From: Microcyclospora pomicola
Taxonomy: Eukaryota > Ascomycota > Dothideomycetes > Capnodiales
Direction: 5' to 3'
Assembly (NCBI GenBank): GCA_002786065.1
Contig: NHNY01000023.1
Location: 124,001-188,000, forward strand
DNA: 64,000 nt
Each line of letters opens with the position of its first letter. Positions within the stretch are counted from its first letter, which is position 1. Shown here piece after piece: positions 16,854 through 19,310 of this stretch. The notes under the pieces are model-generated. The model searched no databases. It was given only the letters and a program-made list of their open reading frames with translations, and was not told the origin of the DNA. Both the position numbers and the translations under genes were made by a program.

Positions 16854-18119
16854 CTACAGATTGCCCCTCGCTTCTTGCTCGCGCTCGATCGCCTCAAACA
16901 GGCTCTTGAAGTTCCCGGCTCCAAATCCATCGAAATTCTCACGCTGGATGATCTCGATGAACACCGTCGGACGATCCATCAGCGGCTTCGTGAACAGTTG
17001 CAGCAGGTAGCCTCCCTCGTCGAAATCGATGAGGATGTTGAGCTTCTGGATGACATCAAAGGACTCCTTCAGCTTCATGCCAGCGTTTCCAAGCCGACTG
17101 CGCATCGTCTCGTAGTACGTGTCCGGGACACTGATGAAGTCCACGCCTCGAGCGCGAAGATTGGTGACGGCCGTGATGATGTTCGACGTCCGCAGGGCGA
17201 TATGCTGCACGCCGGCGCCGTTGTAGAAGTCGACAAACTCTTCGATTTGGCTCTTTTTCTTGCCCACAGCAGGCTCGTTGATGGGCATCTTGACCACGCC
17301 GTTGGCAGAGGCCATGACGACGGACTTCAGAGCCGAGTATTCGGTGCAGATATCTTGGTCGTCGACGGACCAGAAGCGATGAAAGCCGAGACATCGGGAG
17401 TAATACTCGCAGGCGGAGTCCATGGAGTTCCAGTCTTGGTTGCCGACGCAGTGGTCGATGGCGACCAGATCGATAGGGGGAAGCAACTCGTTGATGGGGT
17501 CGTTGGAAAGTACTGAAGCTCGATATCCTGGTAGAAAGACTCCGCTGTATGTGTCCCGCTGAATGAATGTGTGCGTGGTATCGCCGTAAGTCCTGATCGA
17601 CGCCGTCAAGACATCTCCTTGACCTTGATCGCAGACGGCTATGGATGGTGATGAGACTGCCTCTGCACCGTTCCGAACGGCGGCCGCGAACACAGCTTTG
17701 ACATCGTCAACTTCAAACGCCACGTCTTTGACCCCATCGCCATGCCTATCGATGTGTTCCCACATGTCGTCGAGCTGCTTCTGCATCTTCATTGGCACAC
17801 CTTGCATCTGTGTTTGTCGATTCGAACTCCGGATCGGGCTTGTGAAGACAAACTTAATTCGCCCATTCTGTACGACATGACTGGCGATGTGCCGCGATCC
17901 TGTTTCTAGTCCTCGGTATGCTACGGGTCGAAATCCCATGCGTGTCATGTAGTATTGGGCGACTTGTTTGGCATTGCTGACCCACCACGTAATGTGGTCG
18001 TAGCCTTTGTAATCAATCTGCGGATGCTGAACTGCCAGCGACGACGTATCTTCATTGTACAGCGGTAATCGAGATTCGGCATCAGTCGTGATGGTCTGGA
18101 TTAGCGCAGCCGGCGCCAT
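16854..18119 (-). CDS. hpdA: 4-hydroxyphenylpyruvate dioxygenase (HPPD)
   Basis: Intronless, 421 aa. It converts 4-hydroxyphenylpyruvate to homogentisate, the second step of tyrosine breakdown, and supplies homogentisate for pyomelanin. The two vicinal-oxygen-chelate halves are present; the Fe(II) ligands are H223 (IDHCVGNQ), H306 (GVQHIALRT) and E389 ([18 protein letters not shown], which also carries the C-terminal gating helix). The N-terminal half has the GYDHITWWV motif. Length matches the family. The gene shares a 441-bp promoter with a TTC36-like gene on the other strand, which fits the reported role of TTC36 in stabilising mammalian HPD. The other catabolic genes (homogentisate dioxygenase, fumarylacetoacetase) are not in the window. 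Confidence 0.95.
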
Positions 18120-18560
18120 GACATGCGGTGGTTGAACAGTTCAATAAGGCTATGGGTTCTTGTAAGGGCTGGGATGTCTGAACAATACTTCAGGTTGTTT
18201 TGTCTTTCGTCTGCACAAGCAACGAAGTAACGATCGCATTCCTCTGTGCAGGCCGAGTACTCATATAACAACTGACTGTGTATGATGTGAGTATTATTTC
18301 TATCATGCCTCGCATGTCTTGCCGATACAATCCTCACTTGATCTTGGCGGCTATCTTCGGCTTCAGCGTCTGATTTCCTTAAGCCGCGCTTGAACCGGAA
18401 CTACCAACAACTACGCGCTGGCTTAACAATAAGCCGCGAGCATGGGTTGATAATGAGTAGTTTGAACGTATTTGGACGCTTTGTATTCCTGCTTCTACTG
18501 TTTGCTGAAGAATAGACCTTCAACGACTTCCTTCGATCAACCCGTCGACGGCTGAACAAT
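18120..18560. promoter_or_regulatory. Shared divergent promoter, HPPD and TTC36-like
   Basis: 441 bp between two opposing start codons, with no other gene. It contains a direct repeat of TAAGCCGCG at 18380-18388 and 18430-18438, 50 bp apart, near the middle and set in a GC-richer core flanked by AT-rich DNA. The repeated word could be a factor site serving both genes; no known fungal tyrosine-catabolism regulator motif is claimed. Confidence 0.5.
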
Positions 18561-19310
18561 ATGCAATCCGTTCGACTGTCAAAAGCGGATGCTAGAGTCC
18601 TCGGTCAGGTGTTTGACCCGGAAGGCGGCCTCAGAACAGCTGATATCATGATTGATTCGAGCCTTCCATCGGATCCCCGTATTCTCGACAATGCGGTCCT
18701 TGCAAAGCTGAAATCTCGTGAGAAAGCCGCCGTCGCTCTCATTAAGGAGTTTGAGACATCGCGAGACAAAACAAACTCAAACAAGATCGGAACATATTCC
18801 AGGGCACTGGGCTTGTTGGATGCAATCATTAGCGAGTACCCAGACTATGCATCGGCCCGCAACAATCGAGCACAACTGAGGCGATGGAGGTTTGGGGACC
18901 GCAAGATGTTGTACCAGCAAGACGGGGCGATCGACCATGAGCGAGTGCTCGCTACCTCCCAGATCAAAGCGGACCTCATGGAAGCAATCGAGTTAGCCTC
19001 ACCATCGAAATCTCAGCATGCCGTGTCTTCGAGTCAAGGACGACTCTTAGGCCAAGCGTACACACAGCTGGCAGCACTGCACCATGCTGCATCGGAAGAT
19101 GTGGCGAGAGCCAGCAATCACGACGTCGTTGATAACGATCAGCAAGCTCGGAGGGAGTGGTTCGATGAAGAAGCATCGCGTCTCTTTTATCTTGGTGGGC
19201 TTTATGGCAATGAAGTTGCTAAAGCGCTTGCCGTGCATACCAACCCGCACGCCAAGCTATGCGGAAACATTGTGCAAGAGGCGATGCGGAAGGAAATGGC
19301 CCAGGTATAG
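18561..19310 (+). CDS. TTC36-like tetratricopeptide protein
   Basis: Intronless, 249 aa. The architecture follows vertebrate TTC36: an N-terminal VLGQVFDPEG segment (human VLQAIFNPD), a TPR with SARNNRAQLRRWRFGD (human SAYNNRAQARRLQGD), GRLLGQAYTQLAALHH, EASRLFYLGGLYGNEVAK, and the signature end NPHAKLCGNIVQEAMRKEM (human NPYAALCNRMLADMM). A ~24-residue insertion (about residues 114-137) separates TPR1 from its continuation, absent in the human protein. TPR folds bind other proteins. Mouse TTC36 is reported to protect HPD from degradation, and its loss gives tyrosinaemia; here the gene is head-to-head with HPPD, so the same partner is likely by inference. The protein is soluble, with no signal or membrane segment. 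Confidence 0.82.
   Translation: MQSVRLSKADARVLGQVFDPEGGLRTADIMIDSSLPSDPRILDNAVLAKLKSREKAAVALIKEFETSRDKTNSNKIGTYSRALGLLDAIISEYPDYASARNNRAQLRRWRFGDRKMLYQQDGAIDHERVLATSQIKADLMEAIELASPSKSQHAVSSSQGRLLGQAYTQLAALHHAASEDVARASNHDVVDNDQQARREWFDEEASRLFYLGGLYGNEVAKALAVHTNPHAKLCGNIVQEAMRKEMAQV

Follow-up and report, generated by a model that had tools for sequence, protein, structure and literature searches.

A divergent hppD/hmgX gene pair in Microcyclospora pomicola and the probable kinship of HmgX with vertebrate TTC36

In the window, the whole 64,000-nucleotide stretch of contig NHNY01000023.1 analysed here, two intact genes of the dothideomycete Microcyclospora pomicola face apart with their start codons separated by 441 bp, just as a first-pass annotation of the sequence had described them (Table 1). 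One encodes 4-hydroxyphenylpyruvate dioxygenase (HPPD), and its uninterrupted frame scored 455.6 bits against the NCBIfam equivalog TIGR01263 (cut-off 277). The solved HPPD 8jbw aligned over query residues 1–421 and terminates at the same point as the window protein, and in an alignment with human HPD the residues H223, H306 and E389 fell in conserved motifs, which we take to be those holding the iron ligands. In the same alignment, T382 and the remainder of the human tail had no counterpart in the window HPPD, from which the T382 phosphosite (TXXE) is therefore absent. The other gene encodes a protein that carries the ARNNRAQ (with NNRAQ) and NPHAKLCGN stretches exactly as they had been quoted. 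A search of the 23.4 Mb genome returned a single match for each of the two proteins.

Table 1. Positions in the window of the gene pair and of features within the two encoded proteins.
Feature	Position	Strand	Remarks
hppD, 4-hydroxyphenylpyruvate dioxygenase	16854..18119	-	421 aa + stop, intronless; ATG at 18119, TAG stop 16854-16856
HPPD C-terminus, EARGNL	16857..16874	-	final residue aligned to human HPD residue 381
16-residue HPPD insert, residues 102-117	17769..17816	-	without counterpart in human HPD
Divergent intergenic region, 441 bp	18120..18560	.	candidate shared promoter; bidirectional hppD/hmgX promoter per PMC3203155
hmgX / TTC36-like gene	18561..19310	+	249 aa + stop, intronless, single frame
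N-terminal helix (predicted), residues 8-18	18582..18614	+	within N-terminal block common to TTC36
TPR domain (predicted), three helix pairs, residues 44-214	18690..19202	+	contains NNRAQ helix (residues 97-111)
Two C-terminal helices (predicted), NPHAKLCG motif, residues 218-247	19212..19301	+	common to TTC36 (there NPYAALCN)

Frames adjoining the pair matched Pfam families for mitochondrial Mrp51, a GDP dissociation inhibitor and TIM21, and no tyrosine-degradation enzyme or Zn2Cys6 regulator such as HmgR was found by Pfam in the 24 window frames scanned besides hppD and hmgX, which were chosen among the 71 of at least 140 aa. A second divergent pair, hmgA (−) and fahA (+), lies on another contig (C25, about 55748–58288), its start codons, as assumed, being ~774 bp apart. 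No motif common to the two intergenic regions rose above dinucleotide shuffles: they shared 12 8-mers against a shuffle mean of 10.5 (at least as many in 75 of 200 shuffles), two 9-mers against 2.65 in shuffles, and no 10- to 12-mers. Between hppD and hmgX, TAAGCCGCG is present twice, at 18380 and 18430, and the palindrome CCGTCGACGG stands at 18542, directly ahead of the hmgX start; both are candidate regulator sites.

Twenty-five chosen relatives aligned with the TTC36-like protein at 45–66% identity, leaving 35 invariant columns among the 26 sequences, and we therefore regard the frame as a real gene. The best 120 of 842 relatives include, by name, Dothideomycete proteins, among others those of Hortaea, Zymoseptoria and Neohortaea. 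Some of these 120 are labelled ‘tetratricopeptide repeat protein 36’ or ‘Tetratricopeptide repeat protein 36-like’, so that automatic annotation already gives some fungal members the TTC36 name. The label ‘L-tyrosine degradation cluster protein’ occurs as well, on a relative (P0099) that is 52% identical to the window protein. When eight distant fungal relatives served as queries, none of the best 120 of 593 matches bore an Aspergillus name. Bacterial genome contigs scanned twice (82 and 35 pattern matches) and viral contigs scanned twice (28 and 12) yielded no relative confirmed by tblastn at E ≤ 1e-3; such scans depend on short conserved motifs, and distant relatives could therefore escape them.

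The first-pass annotation knew of no description of this arrangement in fungi, a claim contradicted by the literature, in which the gene was published in 2011 as hmgX of Aspergillus fumigatus (PMC3203155) and later traced across fungal genomes (PMC3914699). Small, intronless, divergent and the immediate neighbour of hppD, the window gene fits hmgX by its position, its size, the lack of introns and of a recognised domain, and the name of one relative, a fit of features rather than of a direct alignment with HmgX. It shares with A. fumigatus HmgX (AFUA_2G04210, PMC3203155) and Penicillium marneffei HmgX (PMC4374905) the hppD-adjoining, divergent, intronless arrangement without a recognised domain, and its 750 bp compare with a transcript of 771 bp for published HmgX. 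Unlike in the published clusters, hmgA and fahA here reside on another contig. Our account of how often hppD and hmgX adjoin across fungi is taken from PMC3203155, which places hmgX next to hppD in the majority of the ascomycetes with genome sequences at that time, often with a bidirectional promoter, and from PMC3914699, in which 214 fungal genomes were screened, 38 tyrosine clusters were found and all three cluster types were defined with hppD and hmgX.

In A. fumigatus, the cluster genes were induced by tyrosine, and HmgX was cytoplasmic and had no role in regulating transcription (PMC3203155). Extract of a strain lacking both hmgX and hmgA did not convert hydroxyphenylpyruvate to homogentisate, whereas extract of the hmgA mutant did; the HPPD step is lost when HmgX is missing, and Tat and HmgA activities remain (PMC3203155). 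The gene has also been deleted in P. marneffei, where, in macrophages, the hmgX deletion was unlike the hpdA deletion (PMC4374905). This deletion work upholds, in outline, the proposal in the first-pass annotation that HPPD and its neighbour form a functional pair; the accompanying idea of control over HPPD stability goes beyond the fungal results in these reports, which document loss of the HPPD step and no part in transcription. The same A. fumigatus report could assign HmgX neither a domain nor a homologue in human, worm or Dictyostelium. Taking human, worm and slime mould to lack HmgX, it suggested that a 13-residue ascomycete-specific stretch of HPPD, present in species that have HmgX, might be where the two proteins touch (PMC3203155).

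Profile comparison supports the identification of the neighbour as a TTC36 homologue that the annotation had made from its motifs. A fungal profile of 26 sequences matched a vertebrate profile of 15 aligned sequences (from 120 of 536 matches listed, all mammals or birds by name) with a probability of 98.4% and E 6.6e-15, covering window-protein residues 7–244, compared with 2.1% for the best of 50 column shuffles and 3.2% for a reversed profile. The match was full-length and collinear, non-TPR N- and C-terminal motifs included, and each block found its own counterpart: the N-terminus at E 1.9e-4 (probability 47%), the core at 97.3% and the C-terminus at 93.0%, in every case at a level reached by none of 40 shuffles. 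Six wrong block pairings gave at most 2.1%, and the pairing with that value, fungal N-terminus versus animal C-terminus, nevertheless exceeded its own 40 shuffles. With four single TTC36 proteins the fungal profile scored 96.6–97.7%, and with three generic TPR proteins encoded in this genome 0.2–1.0%. Plain profile searches between the fungal and the vertebrate set reached 32.2 and 36.6 bits (reversed sequences at most 0.9 and 10.2), and in a single BLASTP comparison with rat TTC36 46 of 153 aligned columns were identical (E 6e-7). The N-terminal, TPR and C-terminal blocks of vertebrate TTC36 (PMC6753076) are ordered as in the window protein, at about 30% identity, with 249 aa in the fungal protein against 186–191 aa in most vertebrate rows.

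Searches in the opposite direction were less selective. Rat TTC36 scored higher in the genome against a generic TPR protein (18.9 bits) than against hmgX (17.2 bits), as did the vertebrate profile (33.6 versus 27.0 bits), which also gave 87.7, 76.5 and 3.7% with the generic TPR proteins; animal TTC36 thus finds a better match than hmgX in the genome, and the reciprocal-best test fails as run. We read this animal-to-fungus preference as TPR noise, because the fungal profile gives no match to that generic protein. With non-TPR ends that are collinear and a fungal profile that is specific, homology of the HmgX-like protein to TTC36 is well supported by the sequence comparisons, short of strict one-to-one orthology, and for vertebrates these comparisons contradict the statement in PMC3203155 that HmgX has no human homologue.

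The TPR fold of the window protein is predicted from an AlphaFold2 model and a second-look structural alignment, in which the best Z of 12.6 was under the ~13 that the tool deems safe for repeats. Helix order was identical in the fungal and TTC36 models, which have alignment rows in common: three predicted TPR pairs followed by C-terminal helices. The Pfam TPR call fell below cut-off (TPR_14, 14.3 versus 23.5 bits), and Foldseek found nothing at E ≤ 0.001 with the window-protein model. The best overall sequence match was a designed consensus TPR protein (E 2.5e-5 across four repeats), and there was weak sequence likeness to the three-repeat TPR domains of HOP TPR2A and Tah1, binders of Hsp90 or Hsp70 tails (Tah1, E 0.08 and 0.02). 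TTC36 differs from such tail binders in that its binding survives deletion of the putative TPR-binding motif of HPD (PMC6753076). We set aside, as a main reading, a clamp in which the TPR groove grips the HPPD C-terminus, since binding maps to the VOC2 domain of HPD and that motif is dispensable (PMC6753076).

Mouse TTC36 binds HPD, with the HPD VOC2 domain critical, and raises HPD level and half-life with HPD mRNA unchanged; it prevents phosphorylation of T382 by STK33 and the tagging of HPD for degradation by PELI1 (PMC6753076). Loss of the mouse gene lowers HPD and raises blood tyrosine. The window HPPD, unlike the mammalian partner of TTC36, is without T382, ending one residue before it, and the STK33/PELI1 route therefore cannot be the mechanism of HmgX here. 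Pellino (PF04710) had no match in the genome, and control genomes, all of them prokaryotes, gave none either. Residues 380–383 of human HPD touch the active-site entrance, and the enzyme trimmed to 381 keeps 42–50% of its activity, as against 1–5% when trimmed to 379 (PMC3739788). Because recombinant human HPD from E. coli is active alone (PMC3739788), a helper is not strictly required by every HPPD; among the matches listed in our literature search there was no evidence for a fungal HPPD active alone in E. coli. The argument for the insert as a docking site loses its basis because vertebrates have TTC36 without it, and the 16-residue insert of the window HPPD may still contribute to contact in fungi.

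How HmgX would serve HPPD can be read in several ways. It could be purely a stabiliser, such that without it HPPD is made but is degraded or aggregates by a fungal route, with catalysis itself needing no helper. This reading deserves to be taken seriously, if at somewhat less than even odds: the mouse protein lifts HPD level and half-life at constant mRNA (PMC6753076), human HPD works unaided in vitro (PMC3739788), and PMC3203155, in the parts available, makes no mention of HPPD protein level in the hmgX deletion, all of which would suit it, but the known animal degradation signal is missing from the window HPPD and direct fungal evidence for the reading is nil. Simple co-regulation of two neighbours in a tyrosine cluster, without physical contact, appears unlikely. 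The divergent hmgA/fahA pair on its different contig shows that divergent pairing alone is no proof of a complex, and the literature found, as far as its accessible text goes, shows no contact between HPPD and HmgX in fungi; against this stand the selective failure of the HPPD step without HmgX, Tat and HmgA activities persisting (PMC3203155), and the binding of HPD by mouse TTC36 (PMC6753076).

Least probable, and in our view very unlikely, is that HmgX and TTC36 have only the TPR fold in common, the service to HPPD having arisen independently or the mouse link being indirect. TPR domains occur widely and are degenerate, searches from animal to fungus favour a generic TPR protein, and the fungal model found nothing with Foldseek at the threshold above; yet the ends outside the TPR domain match their counterparts in the same order (E 1.9e-4 for the N block, 93% for the C block), and the fungal profile ignores the generic TPR proteins of the genome, both of which argue for more than a common fold.

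We therefore favour, at a probability of roughly 0.7, the reading that hmgX represents the TTC36 family in ascomycetes and encodes a small TPR protein keeping HPPD catalytically competent. Under this proposal, hppD and hmgX would be switched on together by tyrosine, as in A. fumigatus, and HmgX, a small protein that is cytoplasmic in that species, would bind HPPD as TTC36 does in the mouse. HPPD supported in this way would then yield homogentisate and pyomelanin from hydroxyphenylpyruvate, the step lost without HmgX in A. fumigatus. HmgX would probably sit on the second domain of HPPD, close to the C-terminal helix by which the active site is closed; such a position would account both for the loss of activity in fungi and for the shielding of T382 in mammals, T382 lying just past that helix. 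Control by STK33 and PELI1 may accordingly be a later animal addition onto an older contact between HPPD and TTC36. In the broadest terms, HmgX/TTC36 is most likely a TPR protein of old origin, dedicated to HPPD and serving to keep the enzyme active, stable or both. We lean, by a narrow balance, towards the fuller history in which HmgX and TTC36 are one protein from the fungus–animal ancestor, a dedicated helper that first held HPPD active, with the mammalian phosphosite and ligase control of HPPD added later onto that contact.

The pairing of hppD with hmgX was already known; the placing of HmgX and TTC36 in one family, which rests on sequence comparison, appears to be new. In the literature searched (outside most subscription journals and bioRxiv preprints), HmgX was never named together with TTC36 or tetratricopeptide. 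Within the same scope, and judged by title and the start of the abstract, PMC6753076 alone among the matches for TTC36 and hydroxyphenylpyruvate concerns the pair, and ttc-36 with hydroxyphenylpyruvate returned none. The comparison would join two lines of research that this literature leaves unlinked, a fungal gene for the HPPD step and a mouse gene protecting HPD. If the two proteins form one family, fungal genetics would provide a quick way to examine how TTC36 supports HPD, at which nitisinone and the HPPD herbicides are aimed, and the mammalian phosphosite mechanism could not explain all that TTC36 does. Should common ancestry hold, the published statement that humans are without HmgX and the argument for the insert as docking site would both fall.

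Some minor observations concern the sequences around this system. According to PMC3914699, orthologues of hmgA and maiA were detected in no Dothideomycete other than Baudoinia; an hmgA match is also present in the genome studied here, whose hmgX-like protein is closest to those of Dothideomycetes. The closest relatives of that protein among the matches listed (P0001 and P0002, 65% identity) are filed under cork oak (Quercus suber) and sit among fungal proteins, and are probably fungal contamination in the oak assembly. The fumarylacetoacetase N-terminal domain has a second match on contig C7 (106291–106714), split between two frames, reflecting either an intron or a broken copy.
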